Below, piece by piece: positions 3,854 to 38,867 of a stretch of DNA of 64,000 nt. Origin of the DNA: Shewanella violacea DSS12 (GTDB lineage: Bacteria; Pseudomonadota; Gammaproteobacteria; Enterobacterales; Shewanellaceae); the NCBI RefSeq assembly GCF_000091325.1, contig NC_014012.1, forward strand, positions 4,795,685 through 4,859,684, in the 5' to 3' direction. A model generated the notes under the pieces. That model was not told where the DNA came from and ran no database searches. It worked only from the letters and a program-made list of their open reading frames with translations. A program made the position numbers and the translations under genes. Numbering within the stretch: position 1 is the stretch's first letter; every line of letters starts with the position of its first letter.

Positions 3854-4627
3854 TTAATTACCACTGCCCTTATTACTATTGCCGCCGTTATTGTTATTAC
3901 CGCCACCCTTATTGCTATTACCGCCGCCATTATTGTTATTACTACTGTCCTTGTTATTACCGTCGTCCTTATCTTTATTGTTATTACCGCCGTCATTACT
4001 ACTAGGAACAAGAGGCGCGCCTAATGGCAGTAAGAATTTACGTTGGATCTTGCCTAAACCCTCTAGCTCGATCTCCATGGCTATCGCTTTGGGCAACTTA
4101 GAGCCGTCGACCTTTTTTTCCCATTTATCTTCCATAAAAAAGGAGTACTGGACCGATATAACCCCTCGCATCACTATGGTCTTAATCGGCTCTGCCCCAA
4201 ATTCGGGTTCAGGATATGGATAATACCAACGCTCGAGGGCACCATCTCTAACTACATATGCCACCGACTGTATGCTGCCACGGGGTAAAATTCCATCTGG
4301 GTTAAGCCAGCCTAAACGGAAAAAGACCAAAGCCTCAGATTCGGAATCTAAAATATCTGAGCCCGTTTGAAACACACTAGTACCTCGGCCTCCCTCTAAT
4401 AATCTGGGAGTACGAGCCACCATCTGGCCTAAGTCACGCTCTAACGCACCGAAGCCTTGCTGCAGTGCCTTCAACTTATCGGAAAACTCTTTGGTGACTT
4501 CATCGTTTTTAATAACCGTACTCAATACCGCGTTTGCCGCCAAGCCAATCATGGCGAAGATTGCGATAGCGATTAACATCTCGAGTAAGGTGAAGCCCCT
4601 ATGGCTTCTATTCCGGATTAAGTACAT
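3854..4627 (-). CDS. gspJ: type II secretion minor pseudopilin J (GspJ) with Asn/Gly-rich tail
   Basis: GspJ is a minor pseudopilin of the pseudopilus tip complex. The prepilin signal HRGFTLLEMLIAIAIFAMIG is intact (Gly|Phe cleavage, Glu+5), and the body shows QGFGALERDLGQM and the conserved LVFFRLGWLNPDG. After the normal end of the fold (FLLPLGAPLVP) the protein continues for about 49 residues of Asn, Gly, Lys, Asp and Ser only (about residues 209-257, bases 3857-4003). This low-complexity tail is built from AAY/GGY-type codons and accounts for several spurious open frames in this stretch. Its start overlaps the end of gspI by 20 bases. Function of the tail is unknown. Confidence 0.93.
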   Translation of the reverse strand: MYLIRNRSHRGFTLLEMLIAIAIFAMIGLAANAVLSTVIKNDEVTKEFSDKLKALQQGFGALERDLGQMVARTPRLLEGGRGTSVFQTGSDILDSESEALVFFRLGWLNPDGILPRGSIQSVAYVVRDGALERWYYPYPEPEFGAEPIKTIVMRGVISVQYSFFMEDKWEKKVDGSKLPKAIAMEIELEGLGKIQRKFLLPLGAPLVPSSNDGGNNNKDKDDGNNKDSSNNNNGGGNSNKGGGNNNNGGNSNKGSGN

Positions 4628-31952: not shown

Positions 31953-33061
31953 TGAAACCTTTTATTCAAGCCAGCCTCTACCTCGGCCTATCTATTTCAT
32001 TACTGATCCCCTCTACCTTGCTTGCCGAAGAGCAAGATACTCGGGAACCGGAAGAAAAACCCCGTCTAGTGAGCGTAGTTCAGGTAGAAAACCGTGCCCT
32101 CTCACCAAAAATAATGGTCATAGGCTCGGTTCATTCCCGCAGCAATTCTAAGCTAACCGCAGGGATAGATGGCAAACTCGAATGGGTGCAGGAAGCTGGC
32201 ACCCATGTAGTCGCCGGAGAAGTCGTCGCCAGAATGGAAAAGACTCGCTTATCTCTGCAAAGAGAGCAACAGCAAGCCCAGATAGAATATGAGCATGTGG
32301 GACTCACACGATTGAATCGTGAATTACAGCGTTTAGAGCAACTGATAACCAGTAAGAATGCCTCGGAAACTGAGTTAGATAAGGCAAGATCCGACAGAGA
32401 CCTCGCCGAGGCAAATCTCAAACTCGAACAGATAAAGCTCAAGATGATAATGGACGACCTTAGACGAACTGAGGTAAGAGCCCCCTTCTCAGGCATAATT
32501 ACTCAGCGTCAGCGTCAAGCGGGCGAAGATATTAGCCGCTCTGTCTCAATAGTCTCCATCACAGACCCAGATAACTTAGAGATCCGCCTACATGCCCCGC
32601 TCAAGCATAGCCGTCGGGTAAAAGTTGGTGATGAACTCAATGTCTATCACAACGGAGGCGAGTTTCACGCCAAGATTCGTAGCTTGATCCCTGTGTCTGA
32701 TATCCGCTCTCAGACCTTCGAGGCTCGCATAGATTTACCCCTTGAGATGCAAGATGCCTTCAGTGTCGGCGAGCTGGTCTCCCTAGCCTTACCTATAGCC
32801 TCTAAAAAGCTCACGACCTTAGTGCCTAGGGATGCCATTATCCTAAGATCTACTGGGGCCTATGTATTTAAAATAAATGCAGACAACAAGGCGGAGAAGA
32901 TCCCTGTAAAGCTAGGTGACGGAGAAGGTGACTGGATAGCGGTCAAGGGCGATCTGACCTATGGTGATACTGTGGTGATCCGTGGCGCAGAGACATTACA
33001 AGATGGCCAGCAAGTAAAACAACAGCCTATCCCAGGGACTAAACTTACCACGGCTAGTTAG
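31952..33061 (+). CDS. RND pump periplasmic adaptor (membrane fusion protein)
   Basis: The adaptor links the RND pump to an outer-membrane channel. The ATG at 31952 lies in TGATG with the pump stop, and AGGAG is 8 bases upstream. The protein has a signal peptide (IQASLYLGLSISLLIPSTLLA), a lipoyl half (GKLEWVQEAGTHVVAGEVVA), an alpha-helical hairpin (about residues 105-165), the second lipoyl half (RAPFSGIITQRQRQAGEDI) and beta-barrel and membrane-proximal domains (TLVPRDAIILRSTGAYVF). The order pump-then-adaptor is the reverse of acrAB. Confidence 0.92.
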   Translation: MKPFIQASLYLGLSISLLIPSTLLAEEQDTREPEEKPRLVSVVQVENRALSPKIMVIGSVHSRSNSKLTAGIDGKLEWVQEAGTHVVAGEVVARMEKTRLSLQREQQQAQIEYEHVGLTRLNRELQRLEQLITSKNASETELDKARSDRDLAEANLKLEQIKLKMIMDDLRRTEVRAPFSGIITQRQRQAGEDISRSVSIVSITDPDNLEIRLHAPLKHSRRVKVGDELNVYHNGGEFHAKIRSLIPVSDIRSQTFEARIDLPLEMQDAFSVGELVSLALPIASKKLTTLVPRDAIILRSTGAYVFKINADNKAEKIPVKLGDGEGDWIAVKGDLTYGDTVVIRGAETLQDGQQVKQQPIPGTKLTTAS

Positions 33062-33067
33062 TTTTAA

Positions 33068-33090
33068 ATAAGTTCCTAGGACCTAGGAAC
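33068..33090. repeat. perfect inverted repeat after the adaptor gene
   Basis: AAGTTCCTAGG and CCTAGGAACTT flank a single A, an 11-base-pair palindrome 7 bases after the adaptor stop. The core GTTCCTAGGAAC is shared with a 26-base palindrome at 56830. The following sequence is only weakly T-rich, so terminator action is uncertain. Confidence 0.6.
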
Positions 33091-33262
33091 TTATTGCTCT
33101 CTCCCACTATCTCAATTCCACTTTAAGAAAAACACAGATGAAAAACTGGCGATGAGATCATAGTCTTCTGATATCAGCGTGGCATAATGTCTACTAACTT
33201 TCGCTTTTACTAATATCGCGTATATTTACGTGAAATTATAAATACCTCATTAAGGTAGTCAG

Positions 33263-34507
33263 ATGCCAACTAAAGCCGACCCATGCTCTCAACCAAGCCT
33301 CATGCATCCAGATGAAGCGATAGCACTACTACTCGCACAAGTGAAGCCCTTGCAAGACTCAGAAGTCGTACCTATTTCCCAAGGGCTAGGACGAGTATTG
33401 GCCGAAGATTTAGCATCAAGTATAGACCTGCCCCCCTTCAATAACTCGGCCATGGACGGTTACGCGTTTCGCTTCGAAGATCTTGCCAACAATGAAAGCC
33501 TGAATTTAATCGGGCAATCTTACGCAGGTCACCCATTCGAAGGTGAAGCTAAACCTAACACTTGCATCAGCATCATGACGGGGGCACCTCTGCCCGTTGG
33601 CTACGATACAGTGCAGATGCATGAGAAGGTTGAAGCCAAGGAGGAGGCTATCTTCATCCAGCCTCCTAAAGCCATAGGCGCTAACGTGCGCTATCGTGGC
33701 GAAGAGATTAAAACTGGTGGCAAGGTATTAGTCAGCGGCACTCAAATTGGCGCCGCCGAGCTTGGCGTGCTGGCCACCATAGGCACGAGCCAAATCCGCG
33801 TGACACGTCAGGTAAGAGTCGCCTTCTTCTCCACCGGAGATGAGCTTAGACCGGTAGGAACTGAGTTAGCCCCAGGCCAGATTTATGACTCGAACCGATA
33901 CAGTATTCGTGGCCTTCTCAGCCGAGCTAACGTCGAGTGGATCGATATGGGGGTAGTTAAAGATGATCCTGAGGCTATACGCGAAGCATTCAGAAATGCT
34001 TCTGCCAATGCCGACATGGTACTTACCTCAGGTGGTGTCTCAGTAGGTGATGCCGATTACACTAAACAGATACTCGATGAAGAGGGTGAAATTACATTTT
34101 GGAAGCTGGCCATCAAACCAGGTAAGCCCTTCGCCTTCGGTAAGATAAATAAAGCCATCTTCTGCGGCCTACCAGGTAATCCAGTTTCCTCCATGGTGAC
34201 CTTCTACAAACTAGTATGGCCCTTGATCAACAAGATGCAGGGACTCCCCCAGGCTAAACCACTACAGTTAAAGGCCAAATTGAAGGGCGAGTTACGCAAA
34301 TATCCGGGACGTGTTGAATATCAACGTGGCATCTTAAGCCAGGATGATAAGGGTGAATTCCAAGTCTGCTTAACTGGAGGCCAAGGCTCTGGCATGCTCA
34401 CTTCGATGAGTTTAGCCAACTGCTTCGTCATACTTGCCCAAGAGCAAGGCCATACAGCTGACGGCACACTCGTTACGGTTGAACCTTTTAATACAGTACT
34501 TTGCTAA
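33263..34507 (+). CDS. moeA: molybdopterin molybdenumtransferase (MoeA)
   Basis: MoeA inserts molybdate into adenylylated molybdopterin. The 414-residue protein has domain 1 LPPFNNSAMDGYAFRFEDL, then ISIMTGAPLPVGYDTVQMHE, the catalytic MPT-binding-like domain FFSTGDELRPVG, LTSGGVSVGDADYTKQIL and FCGLPGNPVSSMVTF, and the C-terminal beta domain. AAGG lies 8 bases before the ATG. moeB follows 92 bases downstream, the order found in E. coli. Confidence 0.97.
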   Translation: MPTKADPCSQPSLMHPDEAIALLLAQVKPLQDSEVVPISQGLGRVLAEDLASSIDLPPFNNSAMDGYAFRFEDLANNESLNLIGQSYAGHPFEGEAKPNTCISIMTGAPLPVGYDTVQMHEKVEAKEEAIFIQPPKAIGANVRYRGEEIKTGGKVLVSGTQIGAAELGVLATIGTSQIRVTRQVRVAFFSTGDELRPVGTELAPGQIYDSNRYSIRGLLSRANVEWIDMGVVKDDPEAIREAFRNASANADMVLTSGGVSVGDADYTKQILDEEGEITFWKLAIKPGKPFAFGKINKAIFCGLPGNPVSSMVTFYKLVWPLINKMQGLPQAKPLQLKAKLKGELRKYPGRVEYQRGILSQDDKGEFQVCLTGGQGSGMLTSMSLANCFVILAQEQGHTADGTLVTVEPFNTVLC

Positions 34508-34599
34508 CATAAACCCTTGGCTAGCCGTTAGCATAAGCGCTTCATCGCCAGCTGATTACTAGCCAATTTCTAGCCCAAGAAAGCATCAGGAAAACAGTT

Positions 34600-35367
34600 A
34601 TGAGTTCGACAGCCGATAACCATGATATCTTGTCTGACAGTGAGATACTCAGATACAGTCGCCAGATATCTATCAGGGCAATGGACTTCGAAGGCCAGGA
34701 AAAACTCAAACTCGCTAAGGTGCTGATTATCGGCGCCGGTGGCCTAGGCTGCGCGGCCAGCCAATATCTTGCGGTGGCGGGTGTGGGCCATATAACCTTA
34801 GTCGATTTCGATACCGTCGAATTATCCAACCTGCAGAGGCAGGTACTGCATCAAGACAAGAATATAGGTCAAGCTAAGGTTGAGTCAGCCAGAGAGAGCC
34901 TAAGTGAGCTCAACCCTCACATTCAGATAGATGTCATAGATGCACAGCTTAACGATGCCGAGATAAATAAACTAGTTGCTCAACATGGCTTAGTATTGGA
35001 CTGCACAGATAACCTGGCCGTACGCGAGCAGCTTAATAGCAGCTGCTTCAGCCATAAAGTACCGCTCGTTTCCGCCGCAGCCATTCGCATGGAGGGTACA
35101 GTTACTGTATTCGACTATCAGGATGAGCACCCCTGCTATCACTGTTTTAGCAAGCTCTTCGGTGAACAGCATCTCACCTGTGTCGAGTCTGGCATACTCG
35201 CTCCTGTGGTCGGCATGATAGGTTGTCTGCAAGCCGTCGAGGCCATCAAGGTGATAACTAACATGGGTAAGCCTCTGCTAGGACGAATCTTGATGATAGA
35301 TGCCATGACTATGGAGTTCCGCGAGATGAAACTGACTAAACAGATAAACTGTGAAGTCTGTGGCTAA
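34600..35367 (+). CDS. moeB: molybdopterin-synthase adenylyltransferase (MoeB)
   Basis: MoeB adenylates the C-terminal Gly-Gly of MoaD so that it can be thiocarboxylated. The 255-residue protein has the nucleotide-binding loop IIGAGGLGCAASQYLAVAGV, the acidic VDFDTVELSNLQRQVLH, LVLDCTDNLAVREQLN, and the two zinc-binding pairs HPCYHCF and INCEVCG. The last about 25 codons are repeated in seven downstream copies (35368-36080); each copy keeps the same C-terminal peptide and stop, so the gene itself is intact. Confidence 0.96.
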   Translation: MSSTADNHDILSDSEILRYSRQISIRAMDFEGQEKLKLAKVLIIGAGGLGCAASQYLAVAGVGHITLVDFDTVELSNLQRQVLHQDKNIGQAKVESARESLSELNPHIQIDVIDAQLNDAEINKLVAQHGLVLDCTDNLAVREQLNSSCFSHKVPLVSAAAIRMEGTVTVFDYQDEHPCYHCFSKLFGEQHLTCVESGILAPVVGMIGCLQAVEAIKVITNMGKPLLGRILMIDAMTMEFREMKLTKQINCEVCG

Positions 35368-36080
35368 TCACCTGCATGAGTCTTGTGATGATAGATGACA
35401 TTAATATGGAATTTCGTGAGATGAAGCTGACGAAACAGATAAACTGTGAAGTCTGCGGCTAATCACCTGCATGAGTCTTGTGATGATAGATGACATGACT
35501 ATGGCTATGGAATTTCGCGAGATGAAGCTGACGAAACAGATAAACTGTGAAGTCTGCGGCTAATCACTTGCATGAGTCTTGTGATGATAGATGACATGAT
35601 TATGGCTATGGCTATGGAATTTCGCGAGATGAAGCTGACGAAACAGATAAACTGTGAAGTCTGCGGCTAATCACCTGCATGAGTCTTGTGATGATAGATG
35701 ACATGACTATGGCCATGGAATTTCGCGAGATGAAGCTGACTAAACAGATAAACTGTGAAGTCTGCGGCTAATCACCTGCATGAGTCTTGTGATGATAGAT
35801 GACATGACTATGGCCATGGAATTTCGCAAGATGAAGCTGACTAAACAGATAAACTGTGAAGTCTGCGGCTAATCACCTGCATGAGTCTTGTGATGATAGA
35901 TGACATGGCTATGGCTATGGCTATGGAATTTCGCGAGATGAAGCTGACGAAACAGATAAACTGTGAAGTCTGTGGCTAATCACCTGCATGAGTCTTGTGA
36001 TGATAGATGACATGACTATGGCTATGGAATTTCGTGAGATGAAACTGACTAAACAGATAAACTGTGAAGTCTGCGGCTAG
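35368..36080 (+). repeat. seven degenerate tandem copies of the moeB 3' end
   Basis: Beginning right after the moeB stop, a unit of 95-107 bases is repeated seven times. Each unit consists of an 18-base spacer with ATCACCTGCATGAG followed by a copy of the last 25 or so moeB codons to the stop. Stop codons fall at 35460, 35561, 35668, 35769, 35870, 35977 and 36078, giving periods of 95, 101, 107, 101, 101, 107 and 101 bases. The differences of exactly 6 bases come from one to three ATGGCT hexamers inside the unit. Each unit holds an ATG-to-stop frame of 28-32 codons beginning MSLVMIDD and ending KQINCEVCG, with no visible ribosome-binding site. Most other differences between units are synonymous. 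The last unit ends in TAG and unique flanking sequence. Confidence 0.97.
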
Positions 36081-36205
36081 GGCTTAGTTCGCTCAGGTCT
36101 TAACTTTATTCAAAGAATATTTATAAAATTAACCCTTTTATGGGTATAACTCGTTATTAACACCATAAATTAGTAACTCAAGTCTTTAACGGAGAATCGA
36201 AGGAT

Positions 36206-37126
36206 ATGATTAAATCAGCCTCAACGGCATTGCTTATCGCCAGTGTCCTAATGCTTAGTGCCTGTAATCAAGATAAACCTGCCACCCCAGAAGAAACCCA
36301 AGCTTTCACCGAAAAAGTGGTAGAAGCCGCTATCGACACTGTAGTCACACTAGCCAATCCTGCCTCAGAGTATTGCATCTCTCTGGGTGGCGAGCTAAAG
36401 ATGAAGACTGAAGCCGATGGTCAAGTAGGCATCTGTCACTTACCTAGCGGTGAGAAAATCGAAGAGTGGTCTTTATACCGTAAAGCCCATAAACAAGAGA
36501 TAACTAAGGCAATCGATATGGTGAATCCAGCCGCCGCTTACTGTGAGTCTCTACAAGGAAAGCTAGATCTAAAATCGGGCATCTGTACCCTGCCTAGTGG
36601 TGAAGCCATCGAACATTGGCAACTGTTTAAGCGTGATCACAAGCAAACCCAGCCTCAGATAAGTATGGCTAACCCAGCCTCTGTTTATTGTAAATCTGTC
36701 GATGGAAAACTAGACCTAAAGTCGGGTATCTGTACTCTGCCAAGTGGTGAAGCACTGGATGAGTGGACTCTGTTCAAGCGAGATCACAAACAGGCTAAGC
36801 CTCAGATTGGTATCGCTAACCCAGCCTCAGTCTATTGTAATTCAGTCCATGGAAAACTAGACCTAAAATCGGGTATTTGTACCCTTCCAAGTGGTGAAGC
36901 ACTGGATCAGTGGACCCTGTTCAAACGTGATCACAAACAGGCTAAGCCTCAGATTGGTATCGCTAACCCAGCCTCTGTCTATTGTAAGTCTGTCCATGGC
37001 AAACTAGACCTAAAATCGGGTATCTGTACTCTGCCAAGTGGTGAAGCACTGGATCAATGGACTCTGTTCAAGCGTGATAACAAGAGTGCAGAATCGAGTT
37101 CAGATCTAGCAAAGCCAACGAGTTAA
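36206..37126 (+). CDS. lipoprotein with five tandem DUF333 repeats
   Basis: The signal sequence ends in a lipobox LSAC (Cys20). Five copies follow of a DUF333-like module of about 49 residues with the pattern NPAxxYC, GKLDLKSGIC, LPSGEAL and W-LFKRDHK. Copy 1 is the most divergent (NPASEYCISLGGEL); copies 3 to 5 are nearly identical and repeat at a 147-base period in the DNA, so the array grew recently. Each module has two cysteines that probably pair. DUF333 proteins are usually single-module, haemolysin-like putative lipoproteins of unknown function. A ribosome-binding site AAGGAT precedes the ATG. Confidence 0.88.
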   Translation: MIKSASTALLIASVLMLSACNQDKPATPEETQAFTEKVVEAAIDTVVTLANPASEYCISLGGELKMKTEADGQVGICHLPSGEKIEEWSLYRKAHKQEITKAIDMVNPAAAYCESLQGKLDLKSGICTLPSGEAIEHWQLFKRDHKQTQPQISMANPASVYCKSVDGKLDLKSGICTLPSGEALDEWTLFKRDHKQAKPQIGIANPASVYCNSVHGKLDLKSGICTLPSGEALDQWTLFKRDHKQAKPQIGIANPASVYCKSVHGKLDLKSGICTLPSGEALDQWTLFKRDNKSAESSSDLAKPTS

Positions 37127-37158
37127 CCCTCCTAGAATAACAAGGAGCGCCTGACTAG

Positions 37159-38163
37159 ATGTCGAGATTACCTATGGATCCCTCCTATGAGCTGGCTTGT
37201 GATATCAGCGATAACTGGGATTTAGAAGATTGGCGACCCATACTCGACACTATCTGTATCAGGCATGGTATTACTGCTATCCAAATGAGTCAGAACTTCG
37301 AAGGCACTAACCCTGTCTTCGAGTTGACTCTGGCTTCTGATATCAGAGGCTTAGACAATACTAACCAGTCCTTTGTTGTCAAAATTCTAGCTCCAAATTT
37401 TCACGTTCAATATCAGAGTGAATACCTGAGTCTCAAGTTACTCAATCACCACACTCTTGGGGTCAAGGTTCCTAAACTCTTGTACTTCGGGGATGTCGAC
37501 AACTGGCCCTATCTAGTGATAGAAAAACTAGATGGCATCATGCTCTCATCCGTACTCACTGAGCTTTCCATCGAAGAGCGATGCGACATAGCGCGACAAC
37601 TGGGTCACTTCAGTATGCTCTTGCATCAAGTTCCAAAGCAGAGCATCGAAGGCTTGAGGCTGGATTGGCCAGACTTTATCCGGCTACAAACCGATAAATG
37701 CTATGAGAAGCGTAAGAAGCAAGGCCTGCCAGAGCCTCTGCTTGAAGAGTTAAATGCCTATCTTGCCAGCCATAGCAACAAATTGGCTGCTAACCTAAAT
37801 AAAACAGATGCACACCTGATACATACAGATTTGCATCCGGGTAACCTATTGGTTAAGAAGCACCAAGGGCAATATCAATTTTCCGGGATCATAGATTTTG
37901 GCGATGCCTTAGCTTGCCCAGATCCGGTATTTGAATTTACCTCTCCGGCATTACTTCTCGCCCTTGGTGAACCAAAAATATTCCATGCCTATCTCGATGG
38001 CTATGAATTTAAAGGTAAACGAGATGCCAACTTACAACAACATATGATGATGCTCAGTCTCTTGAGACACACAGGTGACATGAACTACATGCTGCAACAC
38101 GTGCCAGGCTGTAGCCATGAAGAAACCTGGCAGGCCCTAGAAGCTAAGTTTTTCCCACTTTAA
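37159..38163 (+). CDS. aminoglycoside-phosphotransferase-fold kinase
   Basis: The 334-residue cytoplasmic protein has the APH/choline-kinase fold: the lysine-bearing strand SFVVKILAP, LVIEKLDGIMLSSVL, the catalytic loop LIHTDLHPGNLLVKK and the metal-binding GIIDFGDALACPDPVFEF. The substrate cannot be told; sequences of this general type occur as housekeeping sugar, amino-alcohol or small-molecule kinases as well as resistance enzymes. It follows the DUF333 lipoprotein gene by 32 bases, so they may be cotranscribed. Its end overlaps the convergent anti-sigma gene by 4 bases. Confidence 0.85.
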   Translation: MSRLPMDPSYELACDISDNWDLEDWRPILDTICIRHGITAIQMSQNFEGTNPVFELTLASDIRGLDNTNQSFVVKILAPNFHVQYQSEYLSLKLLNHHTLGVKVPKLLYFGDVDNWPYLVIEKLDGIMLSSVLTELSIEERCDIARQLGHFSMLLHQVPKQSIEGLRLDWPDFIRLQTDKCYEKRKKQGLPEPLLEELNAYLASHSNKLAANLNKTDAHLIHTDLHPGNLLVKKHQGQYQFSGIIDFGDALACPDPVFEFTSPALLLALGEPKIFHAYLDGYEFKGKRDANLQQHMMMLSLLRHTGDMNYMLQHVPGCSHEETWQALEAKFFPL

Positions 38164-38867
38164 TCAAGACTTCTAGCTTCGGCCATAAGCAGGCCCTTCT
38201 CAACCCAAAGTGAGACCTTGACCCCCTTAACCGTTATCGATAGCGGCACCTCACCTTTCTCTATCTTAGGTATCTCGCCATAAAGCTTAGGATTATAGCC
38301 AACCTCATACAGGGTCACCTTCTTGCCCTTATCCGTTTGATAACGGATCTGCGCCGCCGTGACTCCCTGAATCGAGCAGTAACGCCCACCTAACATGGAG
38401 TTTTCTTGCTTAGCAAACAAGTCGGAATCCACAACGGAGAAATCTAGCTGAGTAAAATAGTCACGCAGAGGTGCCAGTTGAGCCGATTTAAGCTCCAGAG
38501 GCTTCATCTTTATATGGTTCATAGCGACTTCGTCGGCAATCTTCCAGCTCATATCCTGACTAGCTGGATAAATATTAACACTCAATATAAATACCAAGAG
38601 CAGACTTGCAGTGAGAGCCAATAAAGAATATTTACCTCTGCTGGCTTTGAGGCGACGGCTTGCAAGCTCATGCTGCAGAACCTTGTCATCGATATTTTGC
38701 AGATGAGTCGAATCATGGTCGACCTTAGGCACAGCCTCTTCAAAATCCTCCCCTAGTAGCCGCTCAAATTTAGCCAGCTGTTCATCATCCAATGACTCCG
38801 ACTCTATATATAATTTCACCGCTTGTTTGAAGCCAGTATTCATATTCCCTGAGCCTAAATTACTCAT
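38160..38867 (-). CDS. probable membrane-bound anti-sigma factor
   Basis: The 235-residue protein has a cytoplasmic N-terminal part of about 80 residues (QLAKFERLLGEDFEEAVP), one membrane helix (residues 81-100, SLLALTASLLLVFILSVNIY) and a periplasmic domain of about 130 residues (QGVTAAQIRYQTDKGKKVTL). This layout and its start overlapping the ECF sigma stop (ATGA-type, 4 bases) identify it as the sigma factor's partner by context. It is not a classical zinc-binding anti-sigma: no HxxxCxxC motif is seen. It closes the bufferin-type operon. Confidence 0.8.
   Translation of the reverse strand: MSNLGSGNMNTGFKQAVKLYIESESLDDEQLAKFERLLGEDFEEAVPKVDHDSTHLQNIDDKVLQHELASRRLKASRGKYSLLALTASLLLVFILSVNIYPASQDMSWKIADEVAMNHIKMKPLELKSAQLAPLRDYFTQLDFSVVDSDLFAKQENSMLGGRYCSIQGVTAAQIRYQTDKGKKVTLYEVGYNPKLYGEIPKIEKGEVPLSITVKGVKVSLWVEKGLLMAEARSLD

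Follow-up and report, generated by a model that had tools for sequence, protein, structure and literature searches.

Tandem copies of gene 3' ends downstream of moeB and of other genes in Shewanella violacea DSS12

Bacterial minisatellites, or VNTRs, are head-to-tail copies that change in number by RecA-independent slippage, and integrative elements that restore the 3' end of a gene leave that end present twice. In partial tandem gene duplications with concerted evolution, part of a gene is duplicated and homogenised by recombination (see also PMC3449122 and PMC3857721). Silent C-terminal cassettes, for which Neisseria mafB is an example (see also PMC4287609), are downstream copies of a 3' part that are open to recombination. 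The locus described here, downstream of moeB in S. violacea DSS12, has features in common with each of them: its head-to-tail units repeat the 3' end of an intact gene, differ by slippage of hexamers within the unit and seem to recombine with the gene. Stop-spanning arrays of this kind were found behind many unrelated genes of the same genome, where repeats of gene ends outnumber those of gene starts. Searches of open-access papers revealed no account of a class like this. Positions given without a locus name are those of the window, which is the whole stretch of 64,000 nucleotides that was analysed.

The moeB array and the moeB loci of relatives

The product of moeB matches Pfam PF00899 (E 9.1e-79), and a moeB match was present in 129/129 Shewanella genomes, although that of G112 (52% complete) reached only E 5.6e-15. 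Downstream of the intact gene, the seven tandem copies of its 3' end that the sequence-only reading had proposed were confirmed at 35368-36080. The units are 95, 101 or 107 bases long, all 2 modulo 3, and each holds an ATG-to-stop mini-frame of 28, 30 or 32 residues ending in INCEVCG, also as proposed (Table 1). Stop codons end at 35367 (moeB), 35462, 35563, 35670, 35771, 35872, 35979 and 36080. Tandem Repeats Finder (TRF) reported a single array (35305-36079, period 101, 7.6 copies, 92% matches, score 1274), that is, one unit repeated head-to-tail over at least two periods, as in a minisatellite. The units directly adjoin one another and no integrase-bearing element lies between the duplicated ends, which distinguishes them from a mobile element. 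When a 201-base piece of the array was searched against the 4,962,103-base chromosome (one contig), all 6 matches fell within the array.

Table 1. Features of the moeB locus, in positions of the window.
Feature	Position	Strand	Description
moeB	34600..35367	+	255 aa, ThiF family; intact ORF whose tail is repeated
Parental tail	35291..35367	+	last 77 nt of moeB, homologous to the copies (tail-versus-copy alignment)
Tail copy 1	35368..35462	+	95 bases; mini-frame from 35376, 28 aa
Tail copy 2	35463..35563	+	101 bases; mini-frame from 35471, 30 aa
Tail copy 3	35564..35670	+	107 bases, one extra hexamer; mini-frame from 35572, 32 aa
Tail copy 4	35671..35771	+	101 bases; mini-frame from 35679, 30 aa
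Tail copy 5	35772..35872	+	101 bases; mini-frame from 35780, 30 aa; E-to-K
Tail copy 6	35873..35979	+	107 bases, one extra hexamer; mini-frame from 35881, 32 aa
Tail copy 7, outermost	35980..36080	+	101 bases; mini-frame from 35988, 30 aa; TAG end
Unit spacer, first of seven	35368..35385	+	read as former moeB 3' flank, by comparison with S. benthica DSM 8812 (L037)
Unique sequence 3' of array	36081..36205	.	relatives' gene between moeB and lipoprotein gene missing

Within a core of 17 codons, the copies differ among themselves at four silent sites and one replacement site (the E-to-K of copy 5), and all of them differ from moeB at two further silent sites. The last 17 residues are therefore those of MoeB in every copy with this sole exception, and the array offers no alternative protein ends of the silent-cassette type. 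Over the whole mini-frame 5 silent and 5 replacement changes were counted within the array, the upstream part contributing replacements, so that the statement that most substitutions are silent holds for the core but not for the full frame. Copy 1 carries ATTAAT where the other copies have ATGACT/ATGGCT-type hexamers, and copy 7 shares AAA and ACT with moeB. The outermost copy does end in TAG as had been noted; of the original flank thought to follow it, only about ten bases resemble the flank of relatives (by eye), and beyond them the relatives carry about 1 kb with another gene that is absent here.

Among named relatives, the nearest to this genome are two strains of S. benthica. One of this species, DSM 8812, carries a single extra moeB tail, which has a nearly identical spacer and is joined to ATGATAGATG inside moeB at the same point. 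That spacer contains two TCTNGTG heptads compared with a single TCTTGTG in the window, a 7-base difference that shifts its ATG out of frame with moeB, so that it opens a 21-aa peptide; a later ATG there is in frame. Extra moeB tails thus number seven in the window, one in DSM 8812 and none in KT99, DT_112, G073, G074 and G028, a variation in copy number among relatives that is typical of minisatellites and that was also seen for the pilC- and cysH-like arrays described below. Repeats were also counted at related moeB regions, a check that the sequence-only reading had called for: a clear repeat was found only in DSM 8812 (score 105) and in the window (98), while 74/76 moeB loci tested had none, the third-ranked locus scoring 28 against a shuffled maximum of 23 for that locus. 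Expansion by slippage or recombination, one of the explanations first offered, is supported by the one-copy form in DSM 8812 and by the differences in tail-array copy number between species.

In a tree of moeA and moeB, the window fell outside a group formed by DSM 8812, KT99, DT_112, G073 and G074 (support 82/87), and DSM 8812 is the sole member of that group with an extra tail behind moeB. A shared origin of the two moeB arrays would therefore need several losses or a transfer, and they may instead have arisen independently at the same junction. The unit itself would be the moeB tail plus its native 3' flank up to the heptad, rejoined to TCTTG inside moeB.

The region 3' of moeB also differs in gene content. 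A DUF2057 gene follows moeB in DSM 8812 and, by eye, in G073, G074 and G028; the window lacks it, and a DUF333 gene lies 125 bases after the array. The gene found 3' of moeB in relatives, absent from the window, is truncated in DT_112, a MAG in which a similar flank is followed by TCTAGAN heptads and then by sequence from within the next gene; in KT99 it seems, by eye, to be interrupted by what may be a small transposase gene. The loci compared were L038 and L039. Heptameric TCTAGNN tandem repeats occur in 14/24 Shewanella genomes and 0/16 others (reversed pattern, 0/40), and such arrays lie 3' of moeB in several relatives (L037, L039, L011, L013). The DUF333 lipoprotein-like gene of the window (36206-37126) has five DUF333 matches and internal repeats of 147 bases; its length varies among relatives and no match was seen beside moeB in DT_112. 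Elsewhere in the window, at 3857-3956, short-period tandem repeats of 18, 21 and 42 bases overlap.

The array might act as a regulatory or transcript-stability element in the 3'-UTR of moeB. It begins directly after the stop codon, probably within the transcript, and the fold of copy 6 is more stable than those of its shuffled versions (z -3.4). The other three of the four folded stretches gave z values between -1.3 and -1.8, and an Rfam search of 33000-38500 returned 0 matches up to E 1, so the suggestion of a regulatory RNA found no support. As most moeB loci do without an extra tail and the sister arrays have no common motif, we regard such a role as very improbable.

Tail repeats behind unrelated genes

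The survey covered the window and 60 stretches, each of 20 kb, distributed along the chromosome, together 1.264 of 4.962 Mb or about a quarter, and used mechanically called ORFs of at least 100 aa. The last 75 nt of each ORF were compared with the next 400 nt (tail test) and, as the mirror test, the first 75 nt with the previous 400 nt (head test), at a score threshold of 44. Tail repeats were found in 22/964 ORFs and head repeats in 5/935 (two-sided p 0.0015). Contrary to the earlier view, the moeB array is not a lone case but belongs to a class present in this genome, and the search for other gene tails amplified likewise, which had been recommended, recovered tails of unrelated genes. Scaling from the 21 cases outside the window gives, roughly, 87 tail repeats per genome. 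None of the 964 shuffled downstream flanks reached the threshold. Miscalled start codons were considered as a cause of the low head count, and allowing alternative in-frame starts raised it only from 5 to 6 (tails versus heads, p 0.0037). The five ORFs with a 5'-end repeat upstream (L143, L148, L169, L174, L249) are the mirror case.

In 800 kb sampled from seven other Shewanella genomes, the same test gave 0/645 tails and 1/634 heads (3 heads with flexible starts), heads there outnumbering tails. The tail excess is hence seen in this genome and not in those seven (Fisher p 2e-5). Among 61 moeB neighbourhoods (56 Shewanella, 5 Ferrimonas) there were 4/632 tails, one of them DSM 8812 moeB itself, and 0/599 heads; pooled with the seven genomes this makes 4/1277 tails (p 2e-5 against this genome). 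The samples of close relatives yielded 1/163 tails and 1/158 heads for DSM 8812, 2/93 and 0/92 for KT99, and 0/50 and 0/49 for DT_112, and the 244 ORFs of 24 non-Shewanella loci (five of these loci also among the 61) included one head repeat and no tail repeat. A seed-and-extend search classified the repeats of this genome (864 kb) as 15 stop-spanning, 6 start-spanning, 18 non-coding and 7 in-gene, the corresponding counts for the seven other Shewanella genomes (800 kb) being 1, 1, 9 and 4. By TRF only, 4/15 arrays were stop-spanning in 464 kb here and 2/9 in 980 kb of 80 loci elsewhere.

Proteins of 21 of the 22 array genes were scanned against Pfam (L255 was left out); 19 matched at E 1e-10 or better, each to a different family, and L141 and L158 had no match. 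The families include T2SSF (the gene we take to be pilC), serine dehydratase, thioredoxin, dual-specificity phosphatase, PhoU, PAPS reductase (presumably cysH), MCP, MurJ, class II tRNA synthetase, RuvX, BCCT and GGDEF. The thioredoxin-like array (L142:3764-4043) seems to be built of the gene tail fused to the head of the next gene by a stop/start overlap, with three 31-aa mini-frames each starting on the previous stop codon; a similar array is present in G073.

A dedicated 3'-end mechanism, such as an element directed at gene ends or the copying of 3' ends from mRNA, would account for the excess of gene ends over starts (22 versus 5). No shared motif or element was found among the 22 arrays, the single cross-array match being 21 bases long (E 0.001). 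A shared target site or mobile element was rejected on the same ground, since the best 6-mer (p 2e-4 among 960 6-mers seen) is about at chance level. Start-spanning and non-coding repeats are raised in this genome as well (6 and 18 in 864 kb, against 1 and 9 in 800 kb), and in L140 the unit extends, by eye, beyond a hairpin and T-run that resemble a terminator, which a copied mRNA end would not do. On these data a dedicated mechanism appears very improbable, and we would attribute the asymmetry between stops and starts to selection.

Two other candidate causes were discarded. Loss of repair genes is not indicated, as 7/7 genomes searched, this one included, have the MutS, exonuclease I, RecJ and SbcD families; the sbcD match of KT99 is split in two with an internal stop (G015:C105:19754-20480), possibly a sequencing error. 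Operon position makes no difference either, the next ORF being co-directional for 12/20 array genes and 600/900 others (two of the 22 array genes have no next ORF in their stretch). With the same sets, the median downstream gap was 562 bases behind the array genes and 111 behind the 900 other ORFs.

Probable exchange between the copies and the parent gene

Four array genes, pilC, cysH, the thioredoxin-like gene and murJ, were traced into six relatives with the threshold of 44. A pilC tail repeat was found in G074, DSM 8812, G073, KT99 and, just, in G028 (44), DT_112 having a short piece only (27). The cysH repeat is present in G074 and DSM 8812 and not in KT99, DT_112, G073 or G028; the thioredoxin-like repeat is present in both genomes that have the gene (G073, G074); and the murJ repeat is present in DSM 8812 and DT_112 and not in KT99, G073 or G028. 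G074 was left out of the murJ scoring, its murJ match being split in two with an internal stop (G074:C1:4895676-4897231), where a sequencing error is possible. In a wider set of 32 pilC loci (30 of 58 matched genomes plus KT99 and G028), a tail repeat was found in seven, the seventh being that of G041 (S. hanedai), and there was none in G082 and G125, whose PilC proteins are more similar.

These arrays bear on the objection that the repeats are an assembly artefact or due to chance. Tandem arrays are error-prone in assembly, which lends the first some plausibility. The moeB units, however, differ from one another in length and sequence, and separate assemblies of other species show arrays behind pilC, cysH, the thioredoxin-like gene and moeB, while none of the shuffled flanks of the survey reached the threshold. 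Either explanation is extremely improbable.

Over the last 36 nt, copies are closer to their own gene than to the copies of other species in 4/4 genes, as is characteristic of concerted evolution with the parent gene: 0.926 versus 0.794 for pilC, 0.916 versus 0.888 for cysH, 0.912 versus 0.833 for the thioredoxin-like gene and 0.958 versus 0.876 for moeB. This finding agrees with the earlier remark that the MoeB C-terminus would not be altered by recombination. At 36-75 nt from the stop, the own gene is still closer in 3/4 genes. The thioredoxin-like gene shows the reverse (own gene 0.856, other species' copies 0.960), an indication that those two arrays have a common ancestor; only for this gene, then, can a 3' part under exchange be clearly told from an ancient 5' part. 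As judged from these identities, the copied tails seem to keep exchanging sequence with the parent gene.

Variation among copies was then compared in 33 arrays, the 22 of this genome and 11 behind the same genes in relatives. The p-values of these pooled sites are rough, since copies and sites are not independent and relatedness was ignored. Segregating sites by codon position 1/2/3 numbered 35/41/94 in all; they numbered 13/12/47 in the last 33 nt (p 3e-8) and 19/27/38 farther out, where the bias is weak (p 0.015). At 145/153 segregating sites one of the states is that of the own gene. Near the stop, 11/13 indels are not multiples of three and break the frame; over the whole tail 28/69 are multiples of three with gaps merged, and 16/110 under another gap scoring, so that this count depends on the scoring. 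A copy was taken to keep the frame when it retained at least 0.7 of the tail protein score. This was the case for 0/10 copies with an identity below 0.80, 2/10 at 0.80-0.85, 17/22 at 0.85-0.90, 8/9 at 0.90-0.96 and 14/14 at 0.96 or above, identity and indels being partly linked in this comparison.

The same data allow one to weigh whether the copies are translated, functional mini-proteins that carry the MoeB zinc-pair peptide and are under purifying selection. Seven of seven moeB mini-frames are open, and most changes in the pooled arrays are at third positions. A dN/dS-type check across units, as the sequence-only reading had suggested, showed a silent excess in pooled frame-intact copies (61 silent versus 34 replacement changes, for 275 versus 895 sites), a test that is biased by its restriction to such copies and was replaced by the unfiltered codon-position counts. 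Selection on the copies would likewise be compatible with the weak third-position bias far from the stop and with the open frames of the moeB array. Direct selection on mini-proteins predicts indels that keep the frame, and is disfavoured because most near-stop indels break it. In the sister arrays low-identity copies lose the frame, so that frame-keeping across species and in old copies, expected of small proteins, is not seen in the class, although the moeB array itself keeps its frame. Furthermore, the spacer ATG of DSM 8812 is out of frame, no Shine-Dalgarno-like stretch precedes the ATGs of the array (by eye), and the class spans unrelated genes. Mini-proteins are consequently unsupported as a general function, and we consider them very unlikely. 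The pattern is that predicted by exchange with a constrained gene, in which variants near the stop would mostly have passed through the gene.

Proposed origin and comparison with known systems

Taken together, we consider it likely, with a probability of about three in four, that a stop-spanning tandem duplication persists, that unequal exchange enlarges it, and that it undergoes concerted evolution with the gene, whose constraint filters the variants. A first duplication would arise by illegitimate recombination or slippage between short repeats, in the case of moeB probably the TCTNGTG heptad of the 3' flank and the TCTTG inside the gene. With one breakpoint in the gene and the other in its 3' flank, such a duplication would be close to neutral because it leaves the whole gene upstream, and so could persist; duplications that span a start would be rarer because they probably disturb expression. 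At moeB, about 77 nt of gene and about 18-25 nt of 3' flank would have been duplicated and amplified to seven extra copies by unequal exchange. Misaligned recombination between the tail and its copies would alter the copy number and swap 3' parts, and as the gene tolerates mainly silent changes it would serve as a selective filter, making the copies look coding without any use as protein. A bolder proposal, which we consider unlikely, is that tail arrays form a standing compartment of this Shewanella clade, with about 85-90 genes by extrapolation, in which exchange outlasts species and a recombinable reserve of functional 3' ends would restore damaged tails.

A single curiosity has thus become a countable class. 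The quarter of this chromosome that was sampled holds 22 stop-spanning tail repeats, and the 800 kb from seven relatives yielded none by that test and one by the seed-and-extend method. Three questions can now be tested: why gene ends retain duplications more than starts do, how fast a living gene and its tandem copies exchange, and whether tail arrays lengthen intergenic DNA, as the median gaps might suggest. The class also carries a warning that third-position bias and open frames are no proof of translated small proteins when copies recombine with a gene.

Compared with the systems named at the outset, tail arrays differ from minisatellites and VNTRs in that the unit is the gene's own 3' end with its stop codon, and in that they recur behind many unrelated genes of one genome and seem to stay tied to the gene by continued exchange. 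Unlike integrative elements, they have no element between the copies and consist of tandem units of about 100 bases. With respect to partial tandem gene duplication, the differences are an excess at gene ends, in about 2% of the ORFs sampled, and the probable role of the intact gene as a selective filter, features for which the literature searches gave no earlier description. Finally, silent C-terminal cassettes hold alternatives, whereas tail-array copies encode the same tail, and exchange therefore changes almost nothing in the protein.
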